Notes: a model not told the origin generated them from the sequence alone. Counted from the first letter of the stretch, positions 51,627-60,179 are shown. The stretch is 64,000 nt of DNA from Onishia taeanensis (GCF_013349955.1 NZ_JABVXC010000004.1:121036-185035), one strand, 5' to 3'. A program made the numbers and translations.

Positions 51627-52097
51627 TCAGGATTGGGCGTGAAGGGTAGGCTCGTGGTGGGCCGCCAGGCAAGCGTGGCAGCTGCCAAGCAGCTCGATGG
51701 TCTGACGCTCGACGCGAAACCCCTGATCGCGAGCGCGCCTTGCCAGCTGGTCGTTGACGTCATCAAGGTGCAGCTCTTCCACGCGACCGCAGTGCCGGCA
51801 GATCAGCAGCTGAAAGCCGTGGGCGTGCTCAGGGCAGGGGCAGGCGACATAGGCATTCAAGGATTCGATGCGGTGAATCAGTCCCTGTTCAATCAGGAAT
51901 TCCAAGGCGCGATATACCGTGGGCGGCCGCGCGGCGGCGTGCTCCTGGGTCAGTCGGTCGAGCAGCTCGTAAGCCTTGAGGCCGCCGCTGGTGGTGGCGA
52001 TCATCTCCAGCACGCGACGACGAATCGGCGTGAAGCGTGCACCCTGCGACTCGCAGTGGCGCTCGGCTTGTTGAATCAGTGATTGCGTTTGGGGCAT
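51627..52097 (-). CDS. zur: zinc uptake regulator Zur (Fur family)
   Basis: A 156-residue Fur-family repressor. The winged-helix part is ~20-85 (FTPIRRRVLEMIATTSGGLKAYELLDRLTQEHAAARPPTVYRALEFLIEQGLIHRIES). The metal-binding part has HAHGFQLLICRHCGRVEELH (CxxC) and a second CHACLA (CxxC) near residue 142, the pair that binds structural zinc. The long linker and cysteine pattern point to Zur rather than Fur. It probably represses zinT at 2579, which carries a matching box. It begins the zur-hisI-yidD transcript. Confidence 0.9.
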   Translation of the reverse strand: MPQTQSLIQQAERHCESQGARFTPIRRRVLEMIATTSGGLKAYELLDRLTQEHAAARPPTVYRALEFLIEQGLIHRIESLNAYVACPCPEHAHGFQLLICRHCGRVEELHLDDVNDQLARRARDQGFRVERQTIELLGSCHACLAAHHEPTLHAQS

Positions 52098-52223: not shown

Positions 52224-53201
52224 TCAGGCCGGCGCCGGATCCGCAGATGAGATGAGCTCGGCACGGCGGGCGAAGTGCTGCCGGGCGAACGCGACCCTGG
52301 AGGCCGCATCGACGCCCTCGGGCTGTTGCTCGATAAGATCCAGGCGAGGGCGAAGCCCTTCACCGTTGGCCATCTGAATGGCGAGCCCGGGACGAGCATT
52401 CAGTTCGAGCAGCATCGGGCCATGATCCCGGTCCAGCACCATGTCGGTCCCCAGATAACCCAGTCCCGTCATCTCGTAGCAGCTCGCCGCCAGCTCTAGC
52501 AGGGTCCCCCAACCGGGAATGCGCAGACTGGCGAGCTCATGGCCAGTGTCCGGATGGTCATGCCGGGGACGGTCGAACTGTACGCCGCGCAATGCCGTAC
52601 CGGTAGCGATATCCAGCCCGACCCCGACAGCGCCTTGATGGAGATTGGCCTTGCCATCGGAGGCAGCGGTGGACAGGCGCATCATCGCCATCACCGGATA
52701 GCCCTGAAACACGATGACGCGGATGTCTGGCACACCCTCGTAGGTGTACTGGGTCAGGGTGTCATCGAAATTGATCAATGACTCGATGACGGCCACGTCC
52801 GGCGACCCGCCCAGGGAATAGAGCCCGGATAGGATGTTGGAAACGTGGCGTTCGATATCCTCACGGCCCAAGTGGGCGCCGCTGGGCTTGATATAGGCAC
52901 TGCCATCGACGTGCTCGATGACCAGAATGCCCTTGCCGCCGGATCCCTTGGCCGGTTTGATTACAAAACCGGGATGCCCCTGCAGGATTTTGGTGACGTG
53001 CTTGACCTCGAACTGGGTAATTACGGTGCCGATCAGTGCCGGAGTAGTGATGCCATGCTCATGGCACAATAGCTTGGTCTTGAGCTTGTCATCGACCAGC
53101 GGATAGAGCTTACGGCTATTGTAGCGGCCGATGTAGCGGATGTTGCGCCGGTTCATGCCGATGATGCCCTTGCTTCTCAACTTGCCGGGAGTCGTCCACA
53201 T
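52224..53201 (-). CDS. alpha-L-glutamate-ligase-like ATP-grasp protein (RimK-related)
   Basis: A 325-residue ATP-grasp ligase. Typical parts: GFVIKPAKGSGGKGILVI (ATP phosphate-binding loop, ~85-100), DIRVIVFQGYPVMAMMRLST and the metal-binding MLLELNARPGLAIQMAN near residue 280. RimK-type enzymes add glutamate or other amino acids to a carboxylate of a protein or peptide. The substrate here is unknown. The gene begins 4 nt after the stop of the membrane inactive-transglutaminase gene, so the two are one operon, with the retropepsin lipoprotein further upstream. Confidence 0.85.
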   Translation of the reverse strand: MWTTPGKLRSKGIIGMNRRNIRYIGRYNSRKLYPLVDDKLKTKLLCHEHGITTPALIGTVITQFEVKHVTKILQGHPGFVIKPAKGSGGKGILVIEHVDGSAYIKPSGAHLGREDIERHVSNILSGLYSLGGSPDVAVIESLINFDDTLTQYTYEGVPDIRVIVFQGYPVMAMMRLSTAASDGKANLHQGAVGVGLDIATGTALRGVQFDRPRHDHPDTGHELASLRIPGWGTLLELAASCYEMTGLGYLGTDMVLDRDHGPMLLELNARPGLAIQMANGEGLRPRLDLIEQQPEGVDAASRVAFARQHFARRAELISSADPAPA

Positions 53202-53205
53202 GGGC

Positions 53206-54714
53206 TCAATCCTCCGTCACCGGCTTGAAGCGTTTGAGCTCCAGAAGCCGATAACCGGTGTAATTGCCGAGCAGCAGGATCAGAGCCATCAGAATCAACT
53301 GCACGCCCAGGAAGTTAAAGGTGATATGGCGCACCCAGGGGTTGTTCATGGCCAGATAGGCCAGTACCGCCGTCAGCAGGCTGCCACCCCCCTGGATCAG
53401 CACCTCCTTGGGGCCTTCCTCCTCCCAGAGAATCGACATGCGTTCAATGGTCCAGGCGAGGATGATCATCGGGAAGAAGGTGATGGTCAGGCCGGCATTG
53501 AGGCCGAACCGATAGGACATCACCGAGAAAACCGAAATGATGGCGATGACCGTGATGATCACCGCCGACACTCGCGCCACCAGTAGTAGGTTAAGGTGAG
53601 AAAGATAACTTCGGATGATCAGGCCCACAGTGACCACCAGCAGGAAACCGATCAAGCCGGTGAGTAGGGTGGTCTGAATGAGCGCCAGGGCGATCAGCAC
53701 CGGCATGAAGGTGCCTGAGGTCTTGAGCCCCACCAGCACCCGCAAGAACACCACCACCAGCGCACCGATCGGGATCAGCAGAATGGTCTGGAAGAGCGCC
53801 TGCTCTTCGAGTGGCAGGCTATGAATCGAGAAATTGATCAGGGTGTCTTCGGCCAGTTGATTGCGCACCGCGGTGGAGGCCGGCTGATTATGTTGAATCA
53901 TCGAGAAACTGACGCGGGAGTTGGTTCCACCTTGTACCTCGAGCACGGCCCCGCCTCGATCTTCCCACAGCAACAGGTTGTCGGGCTTGCCCTGTTCGCC
54001 GGTTACCGGGTTGAAGAGCACCGCACTGCCGTCGTCGCTGAACACCTGCAACCAGCTTTGCAGTGACTGGCGGCGACGGCCGTCATCGAGTGCCAGGCCG
54101 CTGACTTCGCGGGCCCGCACGTCGGCCTCATTGAGCAAGCGCACCAGCAGTGGCGTGCGCTCGAACTGGGTCAGCAGCAGTCGAGCGTTTTCGCCCTGAC
54201 GATCGCCGGTGAAGTCACGGATCAGCTCGCGAGCAAAGGTGACGGCATCCGCAGAACGCTGCTGAGCACGCTCGATGACCTGGCTGGCGGCCGTATCGAA
54301 AGGACGCTCCCAGGCGATCTCGCGAGGCAGGGGAGGTGGCTCGGCTTCACGATCAACTGCCTGAGGGGCTACCAGCAGTTGCACCGAGTAGTAGAGCTGC
54401 TGTGGGCCAGCGGCGTCGCGAATCGACCATTGGGCCTGGCGGCTGCCCTGGTCTTCGAGGAAGGCAAGGCCATAGCCGGAAGAGGCTGTGTTTTCGGTCA
54501 GCACCCGGTAGCCCTGCTGGGTGGATGGCAGCGCCAGATTGACCATGACCGGATCGCCCAGGGCAGTGAAGTTGACCTGAGCTTCGACCTCCCAGACCTG
54601 GCGCTGCTCGCCTGGCGTCCAGGGCACCTCGAAGGCAACATGACGATGCACGCTGAGCGCAATGCCGGCGATCAGCAGAAAGCCGACGAGGAAATAGAAG
54701 GGCAGACGTGACAT
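53206..54714 (-). CDS. inactive-transglutaminase / 7TM membrane protein (UUP1 family)
   Basis: A 502-residue protein. An N-terminal signal anchor (5-22) is followed by a ~270-residue periplasmic region with an inactive transglutaminase-like fold, seen as AVLFNPVTGEQGKPDNLLLWEDRGGAVLEVQGGTNSRVSFSMIQ. About seven membrane segments run from ~310 to 485 (TILLIPIGALVVVFLRVLVGLKTSGTFMPVLIALAL...). Members of this family occur with ATP-grasp ligases and retropepsin-like proteases. A role as membrane partner or receptor is inferred; no catalytic triad is seen. Confidence 0.83.
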   Translation of the reverse strand: MSRLPFYFLVGFLLIAGIALSVHRHVAFEVPWTPGEQRQVWEVEAQVNFTALGDPVMVNLALPSTQQGYRVLTENTASSGYGLAFLEDQGSRQAQWSIRDAAGPQQLYYSVQLLVAPQAVDREAEPPPLPREIAWERPFDTAASQVIERAQQRSADAVTFARELIRDFTGDRQGENARLLLTQFERTPLLVRLLNEADVRAREVSGLALDDGRRRQSLQSWLQVFSDDGSAVLFNPVTGEQGKPDNLLLWEDRGGAVLEVQGGTNSRVSFSMIQHNQPASTAVRNQLAEDTLINFSIHSLPLEEQALFQTILLIPIGALVVVFLRVLVGLKTSGTFMPVLIALALIQTTLLTGLIGFLLVVTVGLIIRSYLSHLNLLLVARVSAVIITVIAIISVFSVMSYRFGLNAGLTITFFPMIILAWTIERMSILWEEEGPKEVLIQGGGSLLTAVLAYLAMNNPWVRHITFNFLGVQLILMALILLLGNYTGYRLLELKRFKPVTED

Positions 54715-54735
54715 ACGCAGTCCTCAAATAAACAT

Positions 54736-54759
54736 CACCCACCGGCGGAGCGGTGGGTG
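54736..54759 (-). terminator. hairpin between the retropepsin and membrane-protein genes
   Basis: CACCCACCG-6 nt-CGGTGGGTG, a perfect 9-bp stem. On the minus strand it is followed by ATGTTTATTT. It could partly terminate or attenuate reading from the retropepsin gene into the membrane-protein gene. Confidence 0.6.
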
Positions 54760-54787
54760 GGGGTAATGATGGCAGACAGAGAGGGAT

Positions 54788-55636
54788 TTAGCTCTGGTCA
54801 GGCGTCTTGGCGTTATCGATGTCGCGCGCCTCGTCGGCGGAGGCGTCGCTAGCGGGCGCACCTTCCGGGAATTCCGGGCGTGGGTGCAGGTAACGTTCGG
54901 CCACATCAATAACGGCGATATCCATCATGAAGCGCCGTCCCAGCAGCACCGGATAGCTGAGTTGGCGGCGGTCATTCAGAGTGAATTCGACCTGTTCGCG
55001 AATCGGACCCAGCGTCATCAGTAAGCTGATCACCGGGCGTGAGGCCTCGCCATTGGACTGCAGCACTCGCACACGGCGCTCGATCGGCGCCTCGATCCAT
55101 TTGTCGCGAACGGCATCGACCACGGCGTCATCCGGCTCCAGGGCAAGCTTGAACTTCACCCAGTTATCGCCATCGCGCTCGAAGGGCGTGATGTCGCGGG
55201 CCGAGAGTGATGAGGTGTCGGCACCTGAGTCGATCCTCGCCTGGAGATAGGTGCCAATGCTTGGCAGACCTACCCATTCGGAGCGCCCCAGAAGCTCCTT
55301 GTTGCCGATATCCGAATCGACGGCACAGTCCTTAACCACCGTCTGCGGTTCGCGATCGGCCTGCGCCAGATCAGCCCGCAGTCGACGCAGCAGGCTGCCA
55401 ACTTCGCGGATGTCGGCATCCACGCCGTCGAGTCGCTGCTGCTGCTGGGCGTAGCGCTCCTGTTGGCCACCGCACTGACCGTCAACCGCTGCTTCCAATT
55501 GCGCAAAATGCGCATTCAACTGGGCCGTGGTGGCCAGCTTGGCATGTGCCTCTTGCTGAGCCTGGGGCGACCAGGCGCACCCTGCAAGAAGCGAGAGTCC
55601 CAATAATGCCGCCAGGCATGAATAGCGATTGCCCAT
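54788..55636 (-). CDS. retropepsin-like aspartic protease lipoprotein ('ATP-dependent zinc protease' family)
   Basis: A 282-residue predicted lipoprotein. The lipobox LAGC (Cys20) is followed by a coiled-coil stretch (~30-95) and a C-terminal domain with RIDSGADTSSLSA (~137-149), the Asp-Ser-Gly motif of a retropepsin half, and PVLLGRRFMMDIAVIDV. The family is often misnamed ATP-dependent zinc protease; no zinc motif is visible here. Acting as a dimer in the periplasm, it may cut a peptide related to the neighbouring ATP-grasp ligase. The acidic C-terminal tail is typical of halophile exported proteins. Confidence 0.85.
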   Translation of the reverse strand: MGNRYSCLAALLGLSLLAGCAWSPQAQQEAHAKLATTAQLNAHFAQLEAAVDGQCGGQQERYAQQQQRLDGVDADIREVGSLLRRLRADLAQADREPQTVVKDCAVDSDIGNKELLGRSEWVGLPSIGTYLQARIDSGADTSSLSARDITPFERDGDNWVKFKLALEPDDAVVDAVRDKWIEAPIERRVRVLQSNGEASRPVISLLMTLGPIREQVEFTLNDRRQLSYPVLLGRRFMMDIAVIDVAERYLHPRPEFPEGAPASDASADEARDIDNAKTPDQS

Positions 55637-55774
55637 CTTTATCCTGCACCTTTCCCGGTCGTTGGTATCCGACCCTAGCCACCGCCGGAATATTAAGCCT
55701 TCTCACAGCGATCTTCGAGAAGAGTTCCGCGATGATAAGGAGTGATGACGAGCCTGTCCATGTAGGCACGCGCT

Positions 55775-55809: not shown

Positions 55810-58800
55810 TCACGAGGCTGTCCTTGCCTCGGCGTCGGCATCCTTGGCCGCATTGTGATCGCGGGCCAGCAGCAGATAAAACGCCGGCAGCACGAACAAG
55901 GTAAACAGGGTGCCGATGCCAAGCCCGGAAGCGATGGTCAGGCCAATATCGAATCGGCTGACCGCTCCGGCACCGGTGGCTATCAGCAGCGGCACCATGG
56001 CGACGATCAGGGCTACCGATGTCATCAGGATCGGGCGCAGGCGAATCGCCGAGGCGGTGATGACGGCGTCACGCTTGTTGAGCCCTTCCTCATGCTGCAA
56101 CTGGTTGGCAAATTCGACGATCAGGATGCCATTCTTGGCCACCACCCCGATCAGGGTGATCAGGCCTACCTGGGTGTATATATTCAGGCTCGAGACCCCA
56201 AGGGTGATGAACGTCATGGCGCCGGCCACCGACATGGGGACCGAAACCAGGATGATCAGTGGATCACGCCAGCTCTCGAACTGTGCCGCCAGCACCAGGT
56301 AGATGACGATCAGCGACAGGAAGAAGGTCAGTACCAGAGCGCTACCCTGATTCATCAGCTGCCGTGACTCCCCCTTGTAGTCGACCGAGTAAGCTGGAGG
56401 CAGGCTCTCGGCGGCTGTCTGGTTGAGCCAGGCAAGGGCATCGCCCAAGGTGACGCCGGGGCGCGGTACGCCCTCGAGGACGACCGAGTTAAGTTGCTGG
56501 AACTGGCTGCGTTTAGAGGGTTCCACGCTGTCCTCGAAGCGCACCAGATTGCTCAGTGGCACCTGCTCACCGGAATCGGCTTCGACATAGTAGTTATCGA
56601 TCATCGAGGCATCGAGGCGGTATTGCTGCTCGACCTGAGGAATGACCTTGTAGCTACGCCCGTCCATGCTGAATCGATTGGTGAAGCCTTCACCGAGTAG
56701 CGTCGACAGTGCCTGGCCAATATCAGCCATGGTCAGGCCGATATCCGCCACCCGGTCTCGATCCACGAGAATGCGGGTGTTGGGCCGATTGAAATCGATC
56801 GATTTGCGCAGGAAGGCGAAGTTTCCGCTACCCATGGCCTGTCCGAGCAGATCGTCGGCGATGGCATTGAGCTCCTCGTAACTGTTGCCCGTCGTCAGTA
56901 CGAATTGAACGGGCAAGCCGCCACTGGAGCCGGGCAGGGAAGGGCGTGCGAAGGCGGCAGTCTGCAAGCCGGTCACCTGAGATAGCGCCCCCTGCAGACT
57001 AGGCATGACTTCCATCTGCGAGACATCTCGTTCGCTCCAGGGCGCCATCTTGAAACCACCAAACACCGTGTCGGCGCTGGTGCCGCCGAGAATCATGAAC
57101 GACTCCTTGTAGCCGTCGATGCCTTCCACTCGGGCCTGGATGTCATTGGCATAGCGTTCCAGGTACTCGAGGGTGCCGGTCTGCGGTGCGGTGCCCTGGA
57201 AGAAGATAATGCCCTGATCTTCCGTGGGGGCCAGCTCGTTCTGGCTGGTGATGAACATGAAATAGATAGAGGCCAGCACCACCGTGGCGAACACTACCGG
57301 TACCGAGACGGTCTCGAGAGTGCGCGTCAGCAGCCCTCGATAGCCGTTCGATAAGCCGTTGAAGGTAGACTCGACACCTTTTTCGAAGCGCGACGATTGT
57401 CCGTGAGGCTTCAGCACCTTGCCAGATAGCATCGGTGAAAGCGTCAGGGCCACGATGCCCGAAACGACCACGGCACCTGCCAGGGTGAACGCAAACTCCG
57501 TGAACAGTGAGCCGACTAGGCCGCCCATGAAGCCGATAGGCGCGTAGACCGCCACCAGGGTGGTGGTCATGGCGATGATCGGCACCGCCATTTCCCTCGC
57601 GCCGTTGATGGCCGCATCGAAACGGGATTCACCGGCCTCGATATGTCGGTGTACGTTTTCGACCACGATGATGGCGTCATCCACCACCAAGCCGATGGCC
57701 AGTACCATCGAAAGAAGCGTAAGCAGGTTGAGCGAAAAGCCCAGCATCAGCATCACGAATGCCGCACCGATCAAGGACAGCGGGACCGCTACCGCAGGCA
57801 CCAGGGCCGCGCGAAAGGAGCCGAGCGACAGGAAGATCACCACCAAGACGATGACGAGGGCTTCGAGCAGAGTCTTGACCACCTCCTTGATGGAGTCATC
57901 GATGAACTCAGAGGCATCGTAGGGCAGTACGACCTTGAGGCCAGTCGGCAGTTGTCGGCGGATTTCCGGGAGGGTGTCGCGAACGGCCGTGGCCACATCC
58001 AGCGGATTGGCGCCGGGCGCCTGCTCAATGGCCATGAAGGTGGAGGGCGTTCCGCTGTACCAGGCGGTACTGTCATAGCTTTCGGACCCCAGTTCGGTAC
58101 GCGCGACATCTCTCAGGCGCACCAGATCGCCTCCGTCATTACGCACCACCAGGTCTTCGAACTGACTGGGGTCCGTGATGTCGGTATTGGTCGTCAGATT
58201 GATGAGCACGAACTCGCTGCGCGTCTTACCGACACCGGCTTGGTAGTTATTGTTTTGCAGGACATTGATGACCTGACTGGGACTAACGTTCAGGGCCGCC
58301 ATGCGCTGCGGGTCTAGCCAGATACGCATGGCCATGCTCTGACCGAAGCTTCTCGCCTTGGCGACCCCCGGCAGGGCCTGAAGCTTGGGCTGTACCACGC
58401 GCGTCAGGTAATCGGTAATGCGTGGTACTTCCATTTGCTCTGAATAGAACGCCAGGTACATCAGTGCCGTGCTGTCACCGGTCGATGACTCGATGACTGG
58501 GCTTTCGGCAGAACTTGGCAGTACGCTGCGCTGGCTGGCCACCTTGGCCTGAACCTCAGCCAGGGCGGCGTTGGCGTCGTAGTTTAGCTCCATGTTGACT
58601 TCGATGGTCGAGGAGCCCTGGATGCTGGTCGATTCGATGAAGTCGATGCCATTGGCTTCGGCAATAGCCTGTTGCAAGGGGGTGGTCACGAAGCCCTGCA
58701 CCAGTTCAGAGCTGGCTCCCGGATAGGATGTCGTCACCGTGATCACGGTGCTTTCAAGCTCCGGATACTGGCGAACCTCCATATCCATGGCGGCCCTCAG

Positions 58801-58875
58801 ACCAATCAGCAGGATCAGCAGGCTGATCACGGTGGCGAGCACCGGGCGCCGGATGAAGATATCGGTGAATTTCAT
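55810..58875 (-). CDS. RND multidrug efflux permease (HAE1 family)
   Basis: A 1021-residue inner-membrane pump, beginning MKFTDIFIRRPVLATVISLLILLIG and carrying the proton-relay aspartates in MVLAIGLVVDDAIIVVENVHRHIEAGE (TM4), with the later motif QVGLITLIGVVAKNGILIVEFANQLQHEEG. It resembles MexF/MuxB/VexH-type drug pumps. Its ATG overlaps the adaptor stop by one base. No outer-membrane factor or local repressor gene is present, so a shared TolC is likely. Confidence 0.92.
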   Translation of the reverse strand: MKFTDIFIRRPVLATVISLLILLIGLRAAMDMEVRQYPELESTVITVTTSYPGASSELVQGFVTTPLQQAIAEANGIDFIESTSIQGSSTIEVNMELNYDANAALAEVQAKVASQRSVLPSSAESPVIESSTGDSTALMYLAFYSEQMEVPRITDYLTRVVQPKLQALPGVAKARSFGQSMAMRIWLDPQRMAALNVSPSQVINVLQNNNYQAGVGKTRSEFVLINLTTNTDITDPSQFEDLVVRNDGGDLVRLRDVARTELGSESYDSTAWYSGTPSTFMAIEQAPGANPLDVATAVRDTLPEIRRQLPTGLKVVLPYDASEFIDDSIKEVVKTLLEALVIVLVVIFLSLGSFRAALVPAVAVPLSLIGAAFVMLMLGFSLNLLTLLSMVLAIGLVVDDAIIVVENVHRHIEAGESRFDAAINGAREMAVPIIAMTTTLVAVYAPIGFMGGLVGSLFTEFAFTLAGAVVVSGIVALTLSPMLSGKVLKPHGQSSRFEKGVESTFNGLSNGYRGLLTRTLETVSVPVVFATVVLASIYFMFITSQNELAPTEDQGIIFFQGTAPQTGTLEYLERYANDIQARVEGIDGYKESFMILGGTSADTVFGGFKMAPWSERDVSQMEVMPSLQGALSQVTGLQTAAFARPSLPGSSGGLPVQFVLTTGNSYEELNAIADDLLGQAMGSGNFAFLRKSIDFNRPNTRILVDRDRVADIGLTMADIGQALSTLLGEGFTNRFSMDGRSYKVIPQVEQQYRLDASMIDNYYVEADSGEQVPLSNLVRFEDSVEPSKRSQFQQLNSVVLEGVPRPGVTLGDALAWLNQTAAESLPPAYSVDYKGESRQLMNQGSALVLTFFLSLIVIYLVLAAQFESWRDPLIILVSVPMSVAGAMTFITLGVSSLNIYTQVGLITLIGVVAKNGILIVEFANQLQHEEGLNKRDAVITASAIRLRPILMTSVALIVAMVPLLIATGAGAVSRFDIGLTIASGLGIGTLFTLFVLPAFYLLLARDHNAAKDADAEARTAS

Positions 58876-59999
58876 CAGCCCTGCGCCTCCTCGTCAGCAT
58901 TCGTCGCTTGAGACTCTGACGCATTCATGTCGACCGCCTTGACTGGCTGACCATCGCGCAGGCGAAGAAGGCCAGTGGCCACGACCTGGTCGCCTTCTGA
59001 GAGGCCATCGACAATCTCGATGACATCGCCTCGGGTGCTGCCCGTCGTCACTTGCTGGCGGGATGCGATGGTCTGGCCCTGGTCATTTTCGACAATACGA
59101 AATACGAAGTCGCCATAGGTATTGAAGGACAGCGCCGTGCGGGGGAGGGTAAGAACCTCCCGCGTATCGGCGGAAAGCGTATTGACCTCGGCGAACATGC
59201 CTGGGTGCAGTGCGCCGTCGGCGTTATCGAGCTTGGCACGCACATTGAGCGTGCGGCTCGATTGATTCACCGAGGGTGCGATGGCCAGAATCTCACCCTC
59301 GAAGACGCGGTCAGGATAGGCGGCGACGGTAATCTCGATGCTGCGCCCGGCGGCCACTTGCTCAAGCGCGCGCTCCGGCACGCTGTAGTCCACGTGGATC
59401 GGGTCCAGCATGTTCAGGTCGACAATCGGCGTGCCGACGGCGATATATTCGCCCAGGTCGACCTGGCGCAGGCCAACGACGCCGTCGAAGGGAGCGCGGA
59501 TGGTTTTCTTGTTGAGCTGGGCACGCTGTTGTTCGGCATCGGCGCGGGCAGCCTGATAGTTGGCCCGAGCTTCGTCGAACTGAGACTGGGAGACCGCATT
59601 GCGTGGCAACAGATTCGAATAACGCTGGTAGGTCTCGTTGGCCAGTTGTGCCTGGGCTTCCAGAGCCGCAAGCGCGGCTTGATCGACGCTGTCTTCGAGG
59701 CGAATCAGCACATCACCTTTGCTGACGCGCTGACCCGACTCGAAGGCCACTTCACTGACAACGCCAGCCACTTCATTGGCCACTGCGACACCGTTGATGG
59801 CGCGCAGAGAGCCGACCGAGCTCAAGCCCGGGCGCCAGGATTGAGGCTCGATGGTAACTGATTCGACGGACGTCGGTGGTTGGGCTTGTGCGTTCTTTTC
59901 TCCCATTTCCTGCATTTTCAGGTACTTCCATCCGAAAATGCTGCCCAAAGCCACCGTCAGCACGATGATGACAATGACGAGACGTATTGTGGTTTTCAT
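58875..59999 (-). CDS. RND efflux periplasmic adaptor subunit
   Basis: A 374-residue membrane-fusion protein with an N-terminal anchor (6-24) and two lipoyl halves (GVVSEVAFESGQRVSKGDVLIRLED and APFDGVVGLRQVDLGEYIAVGTPIV) around a short helical hairpin (~100-150), then the barrel and membrane-proximal domains. The ATG at 59999 has GGGAA ~8 nt ahead; the open frame upstream is not conserved-looking. It forms an operon with the permease. Confidence 0.9.
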   Translation of the reverse strand: MKTTIRLVIVIIVLTVALGSIFGWKYLKMQEMGEKNAQAQPPTSVESVTIEPQSWRPGLSSVGSLRAINGVAVANEVAGVVSEVAFESGQRVSKGDVLIRLEDSVDQAALAALEAQAQLANETYQRYSNLLPRNAVSQSQFDEARANYQAARADAEQQRAQLNKKTIRAPFDGVVGLRQVDLGEYIAVGTPIVDLNMLDPIHVDYSVPERALEQVAAGRSIEITVAAYPDRVFEGEILAIAPSVNQSSRTLNVRAKLDNADGALHPGMFAEVNTLSADTREVLTLPRTALSFNTYGDFVFRIVENDQGQTIASRQQVTTGSTRGDVIEIVDGLSEGDQVVATGLLRLRDGQPVKAVDMNASESQATNADEEAQG

Positions 60000-60179
60000 A
60001 GCGTGTTCCCGAGAAGCGTCGACAATAACCATGACCGCTACGCCATAAGGCATCGAGGCGGCATAGGGAAGATGTTATAAGAGTCCAATGATGTAAGTAT
60101 GACGGCCAAATGGCCAGTAACCTAAGGCAAAAAGGCAGCAATAGTGGCAAGTTTCTTTTGCCTCGCGCATCTAATTTAA

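Follow-up and report, generated by a model that had tools for sequence, protein, structure and literature searches.

The 64,000-nucleotide stretch analysed here (the window; Onishia taeanensis, GCF_013349955.1, NZ_JABVXC010000004.1:121036-185035) carries three adjoining genes at positions 52224-55636, all on the minus strand and transcribed in the order rloA, rloB, rloC. The locus is a variant of a known system, the rlo operon, which was reported from Pseudomonas aeruginosa in 2025. That the three genes form one system is well supported. As to how the system works, we favour, with confidence a little short of even, the reading that RloB and RloC make and export an amino-acid polymer, and that a domain of RloB originally processed this product before the protease RloA took over.

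The three genes and their identity with the rlo system

The rloA gene (54788..55636, minus strand, 282 amino acids) encodes an exported retropepsin-like aspartic protease lipoprotein (PF05618, 1.4e-38). Its N-terminus, MGNRYSCLAALLGLSLLAGC, is a lipoprotein signal with the lipobox LLAGC20, and the catalytic D136 lies within RIDSGAD, so the Asp-Ser-Gly protease on a lipid anchor that had been read from the DNA alone was correctly recognized. The approximately 90 residues after the lipobox look like a helical spacer before the protease domain. The NCBIfam models RloA3, RloA2 and RimB matched the protein at 6.6e-32 to 3e-25, all under their curated cut-offs (110.4 bits against 210 for the best RloA model). 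RloA was also aligned to the structures 9g58 and 9g59 (1.1e-17 and 2e-23), which, judging by length, we identify with the published crystals of RloA from P. fluorescens and RloA2 from P. aeruginosa. Counting equivalent residues in this alignment, R114 and R137, the two most important polyglutamate-binding arginines, correspond to R200 and R223 of the window protein; the K46 position is R134, and R92 is not kept.

A lipobox-like motif was found in 11 of the 53 PF05618 proteins screened from rlo loci, two of them possibly chance matches (L109 and L130) and one further protein (L081) likely missed by the screen. Most of the 11 are long (225-332 amino acids) and belong to the same part of the tree as the window. 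The window sits in a clade whose RloA is a predicted lipoprotein with a spacer of about 90 residues, which goes beyond the published paper, and we read this lipid-anchored, spacer-borne form as a positioned protease and not a free periplasmic protein. The same genome has a second exported RloA (G000:C5:64073-64477; L002, L238) of 183 amino acids, with a signal peptide and DSGA.

The rloB gene (53206..54714, minus strand, 502 amino acids) encodes an N-terminal transmembrane helix, a periplasmic transglutaminase-fold domain and a C-terminal seven-transmembrane (7TM) domain, with matches to PF14400 (4.9e-56) and PF14402 (4.9e-110). The NF052267 RloB model matched at 4.2e-100 with 335.9 bits, under its 900-bit exception cut-off. 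In the AlphaFold2 model, built from 65 sequences (mean predicted local distance difference test, pLDDT, 83.1; predicted template modelling score 0.74), residues 37-278 form a transglutaminase-like cysteine-protease fold (3isr, Z 15.6, 218 aligned residues), alongside a single helix at the N-terminus and a membrane domain built of helices. The columns of the catalytic Cys, His and Asp hold a gap, Q and N, which bears out the earlier label of an inactive transglutaminase. For the 7TM fold the best VIA-align neighbours were NqrD and RnfE, whose Z of 7.7 is too low, and the match was therefore not used; a sequence search of the PDB with the 7TM profile gave no match. A weak PF14402 match in genome G077 proved to lie in a sodium symporter gene.

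The rloC gene (52224..53201, minus strand, 325 amino acids) starts 4 nucleotides past the rloB stop. It encodes a cytosolic ATP-grasp amide ligase of the alpha-L-glutamate-ligase-like type (TIGR02291, 460.7 bits against a cut-off of 314.2; PF14397, 9.6e-96), with weak matches in the PDB to alpha-L-glutamate ligase and RimK-type entries. Gene calls and profile matches therefore agree with the three same-strand genes, and the families, of the original prediction.

What identifies the locus as rlo is a PF05618 protein with the catalytic Asp and an export signal, a transglutaminase fold without catalytic residues fused to PF14402, and a TIGR02291 ATP-grasp ligase, all three of which the window has, in the same-strand A-B-C adjacency also found in most genomes of the class. 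The curated NCBI cut-offs for the named P. aeruginosa RloA and RloB are not reached by the window proteins; these models ("exception" and "equivalog") name close orthologues, so the missed cut-offs concern the names of the proteins and not the system. It follows that the idea of one system, its envelope or osmotic role and the in vitro cleavage of polyglutamate are already published for rlo. The genes had been taken for an uncharacterised system, which was mistaken: it has a name, and its RloA cleaves polyglutamate in vitro (PMC12239564).

Under low salt P. aeruginosa requires its exported, mutually redundant RloA proteases; a strain with the triple rloA deletion is sick under these conditions, and deletion of rloB or rloC suppresses this (PMC12239564). 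RloA needs its catalytic Asp and polyglutamate-binding Arg, cleaves glutamate runs of E8 or longer in vitro and cuts RpsF-8E in vitro, and the published proteome search found no genome-encoded or periplasmic substrate protein (PMC12239564). The system affects low-salt survival, beta-lactam sensitivity, cell shape and biofilm (PMC12239564). Loss of an RloB homologue in Shewanella vesiculosa gave more vesicles in a transposon study (PMC12096838). The predicted role in osmotic or envelope stress thus holds for P. aeruginosa (PMC12239564); in the window's organism this role, the low-salt phenotype, its suppression by rloB or rloC and polyglutamate cleavage would be expected by analogy.

Joint inheritance and fusion of the rlo genes

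We traced the genes in the class Gammaproteobacteria (274 genomes) and in the family to which the window belongs (101 genomes). In the class, every genome with a clear RloC also had RloB (52/52), and 52 of the 56 genomes with RloB had RloC (Fisher p = 9e-52); 50 of these pairs were adjacent on one strand. In the family, RloB and RloC were confined to the identical 69 genomes. At least two PF05618 copies were present in 67 of these 69 genomes and in one of the 32 without RloBC (p = 1.7e-22), where the copy number drops to 1 or 0. Fifteen RloB-negative genomes were read individually: every remaining PF05618 copy was followed by a RimK-size ATP-grasp gene, as in RimB-type pairs, and 14 of the 15 had no signal peptide, the other (L237) having a hydrophobic N-terminal stretch that is possibly a start-site artefact. 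The losses include single species in genera otherwise having the system, and the rlo genes have therefore likely been lost jointly several times independently.

RloB and RloC also occur as a single polypeptide in two gammaproteobacterial genomes (L046:2976-5492, plus strand, 838 amino acids; L221, an open reading frame (ORF) of 807 amino acids). In both fusions the ligase lies beyond the final membrane helix, where a cytosolic RloB C-terminus would place it.

Could the three genes nevertheless be unrelated neighbours? The 73-nucleotide gap with a hairpin between rloA and rloB would suit such an explanation, to which we give next to no credence. It is already refuted by the co-distribution in family and class and by the published epistasis (PMC12239564), and the fusions speak against it as well. 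Independent phylogenetic distribution, named beforehand as a finding that would speak against one system, was looked for and did not hold. The joint gain and loss in the family, the RloB-RloC fusions and the P. aeruginosa epistasis (PMC12239564) bear the one-system claim out.

A sister family with an intact triad and the proposed mechanism

Some PF14402 proteins keep the motif SCNGK...SHQW...PFD, that is, an intact Cys-His-Asp triad. In genome-search samples drawn regardless of triad state, RloC adjoined RloB in all ten intact-triad loci, and none of these loci had RloA. Six of the ten genomes were without PF05618, three had one copy resembling cytosolic RimB, and the tenth was a contaminated bin with both systems. 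The triad Cys was present in none of the approximately 85 other transglutaminase-domain loci of the same samples.

When named genomes were scanned with the intact-triad alignment, 223 relatives were found and 80 kept, from Gammaproteobacteria, Nitrosomonadales, Zetaproteobacteria, Nitrospirota, Desulfobacterota, Campylobacterota, Bacteroidota, Calditrichota, Myxococcota, Spirochaetota, Fibrobacterota, Krumholzibacteriota and Bdellovibrionota. The Cys motif was one of two scan patterns, so the frequency of the triad is not measurable from these loci. RloA was beside the sister RloB in none of the 80 loci, RloC was detected in 56, a membrane-anchored tetratricopeptide repeat (TPR) protein in 66 and a barrel family in 42, many loci being clipped by contig ends or by non-overlapping ORF picking. 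The usual operon is RloB-RloC-periplasmic TPR-outer-membrane barrel, and several loci have a TPR lipoprotein upstream. The model of the barrel protein (pLDDT 91.5) has 16 long strands and resembles porins (Z ~20), with AlgE among the Foldseek matches. A search of the open-access literature for such an operon returned nothing relevant. These loci represent a sister family of RloB and RloC in about 12 phyla, an addition beyond the published paper. Two other loci (L071:5080-6237 and L072:4900-6021) have 7TM proteins without the transglutaminase domain adjoining RloC; the L072 gene is preceded by one for a 315-amino-acid secreted, barrel-like protein.

The mechanism we propose starts from the observed gene content, co-inheritance, fusions, domain states and sister operon, and from the polyglutamate cleavage and suppression genetics published for P. 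aeruginosa. In the cytosol RloC would use ATP to link amino acids, most likely glutamate, by amide bonds, yielding a polymer or a poly-aminoacylated product, and would bind the cytosolic side of RloB. RloB would carry the product across the inner membrane and its transglutaminase-fold domain would hold it in the periplasm, where the lipid-anchored RloA could reach in on its spacer and cut it. Without RloA, uncut product would build up in the envelope and be harmful in low salt. In the ancestral form, which the sister family would still preserve, RloB's own Cys-His-Asp domain would do the processing in the periplasm, and the periplasmic TPR protein and outer-membrane barrel would carry the product further.

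The export-type partners fit such a make-move-trim scheme, and so do the suppression genetics, in which harm arises only if RloBC operate in the absence of RloA. Further support comes from the window RloA, which keeps the catalytic Asp and basic residues at K46 (as R), R114 and R137. The original prediction had a ligase that makes a product, a 7TM protein that senses or exports it and a protease that processes it; in its export form this order fits the P. aeruginosa genetics and the TPR and barrel sister operons, with product and transport remaining conjectural parts.

Several points weigh against this mechanism. The identity of the product and its transport by RloB are steps that we infer, as are the processing takeover by RloA and the transfer of the mechanism to the window's organism. 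In P. aeruginosa, rloB and rloC single mutants have defects of their own, so the pathway does more than cause harm. That the 7TM domain is homologous to PgsC/CapC, a subunit of the polyglutamate exporter, was suggested by G-x-P-x-x-A-L motifs seen by eye and by one weak hmmscan match, but the tests do not support it: hhalign gave a probability of ~1% against the small CapC profile (PF14102), an unrelated symporter control scored higher, one of 34 members matched that profile (E 2.2), and the homology was dropped as a claim.

The exclusion between triad and RloA has limits as well. Intact-triad and degenerate-triad RloBs lie on opposite sides of one branch in a quick tree of the 7TM domain, so the exclusion, perfect in this sample, counts as one event, at most two; with each type on one side, the tree does not support many independent origins of triad loss. 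The count of two applies if a divergent RloB group (L047, L048, L049 and L057), which has no transglutaminase Cys and no RloC nearby, is separate; of this group, L047 and L057 have RloA beside RloB, and two CorA-type transporter genes lie near the L047 locus. Four degenerate-triad loci have no RloA beside RloB (L106, L117, L084 and L049), and in three of those four genomes the only copy found was RimB-type. A dead transglutaminase domain therefore implies RloA as a strong tendency and not as a rule.

Two other explanations deserve attention. RloC might polyglutamylate a protein, lipid or cell-wall precursor, which RloB flips or displays and from which RloA removes the glutamates in the periplasm. 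The RimK/RimB pair, whose RimB acts on RpsF in the cytosol, is a precedent for such a modification cycle, RloA cuts RpsF-8E in vitro, and the wall is suggested by the phenotypes in beta-lactam sensitivity and cell shape (PMC12239564). RimBK is kept where RloABC is lost, which indicates that the two cycles are separate. However, the proteome search yielded no periplasmic substrate protein (PMC12239564), and the TPR protein and outer-membrane barrel of the sister operons suit a polymer better than a modified protein; we regard this cycle as an unlikely though serious candidate.

Less probable in our judgement, and distinctly unlikely, is that RloB acts as a receptor whose dead domain binds a periplasmic ligand, shaped by RloA, and controls RloC, with no export at all. 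A dead enzyme domain suits binding, sensing had been allowed for in the original prediction, and the structural matches of the membrane domain (best Z 7.7) are all too weak to show a transporter. Yet a sensor accords poorly with the intact triad of the sister RloBs and their conserved outer-membrane barrel partner. The 7TM forms without the transglutaminase domain beside RloC in L071 and L072 argue in the same direction, the core being therefore the membrane-domain/ligase pair and not ligand sensing by the transglutaminase domain.

Returning to synthesis and export of a polymer, the scheme has a wider and more speculative form, which we consider doubtful. RloB and RloC may form, in ~12 phyla, the inner-membrane core of envelope-spanning machines of an unrecognised class, which make and secrete an amino-acid polymer built by ATP-grasp ligases; ancestrally RloB would have processed it as a cysteine protease and the TPR protein and 16-strand barrel would have exported it. 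The gammaproteobacterial Rlo would then be derived and confined to the periplasm, a retropepsin having replaced the dead domain. The candidate ancestral export machine makes the question of Rlo's natural substrate more directly testable: the sister operons link RloB and RloC with parts for export across the envelope and so provide an independent handle on the substrate. Since the sister homologues keep an intact protease domain, one can look for the product at a place where it may exit the cell. Should the replacement model be true, this would be a clear case of a retropepsin taking over a periplasmic cysteine-protease activity.

Flanking features and comparison with known systems

The rloA-rloB gap contains a 9-bp GC-rich hairpin followed by ATGTTTATTT (54736..54759, minus strand), a terminator-like pattern that RNA folding recovers, with an energy z of just -1.4 for the region; it is a possible attenuator or partial terminator. 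A sigma70-like site 5' of rloA, TGGACA-17-TATCAT (55732..55760, minus strand), is a weak candidate: the promoter scan found one site against 1.0 expected in shuffles, so it is no better than chance. Genes for a resistance-nodulation-division efflux pump and its adaptor (55810-60053, minus strand) immediately precede rloA on its strand, and just downstream of rloC lies a Zur-like Fur-family regulator (51627-52097, minus strand; 135.5 bits, under the Zur equivalog cut-off of 167). Elsewhere, a complete bacterial transglutaminase-type gene lies close to RloABC in two loci (L073:2969-3769, where PF08379 and PF01841 were identified, and L074:3149-3949).

The closest known system is the P. aeruginosa rlo operon, with the same three adjacent families on the same strand (exported retropepsin, dead transglutaminase-7TM protein, cytosolic ATP-grasp ligase) and, at other places in the genome, RimBK and additional PF05618 copies. 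The window copy differs in its 282-amino-acid lipoprotein RloA with a spacer of ~90 residues, where P. aeruginosa has a short secreted one, and in a DSG in place of DTG. The cysteines of its exported part (C20, C55 and C104) are all N-terminal to the protease domain, whereas P. aeruginosa has a disulfide inside the domain. The scores of RloA and RloB under the curated cut-offs are a further difference from the named P. aeruginosa proteins.

RimA/RimB/RimK, which glutamylates ribosomal S6, shares a homologous retropepsin and ATP-grasp glutamate ligase, but it is cytosolic and without a membrane protein. The window locus does not belong to it (a cytosolic RimB beside RimK), since its RloA has a signal peptide and lipobox. 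RimBK is present separately in the window's genome, as a RimB-type gene adjoining a RimK-size gene (G000:C92), and persists in relatives when RloABC is lost.

PgsBCA/CapBCA resembles the proposed working of rlo in that a cytosolic ligase and an integral membrane subunit make and export polyglutamate; in contrast, the window RloC is an ATP-grasp enzyme and not a Mur-ligase-type PgsB. Proteins of ~1080 amino acids with two tandem CapC-like domains occur in three loci (L094:4094-7333, L095:4770-8003 and L096:4788-8009), followed by genes for ~800- and ~300-amino-acid proteins without a convincing Pfam match (checked in L094), and possibly represent an unrecognised type of poly-amino-acid synthase.

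Synthase-dependent exopolymer export (AlgK-AlgE, PgaA, BcsC and PelBC) pairs a TPR protein with an outer-membrane barrel, a layout also found in the sister RloBC operons. No glycosyltransferase was seen in those operons, where the ATP-grasp ligase is the synthase candidate, and the window's own operon has neither TPR nor barrel gene.

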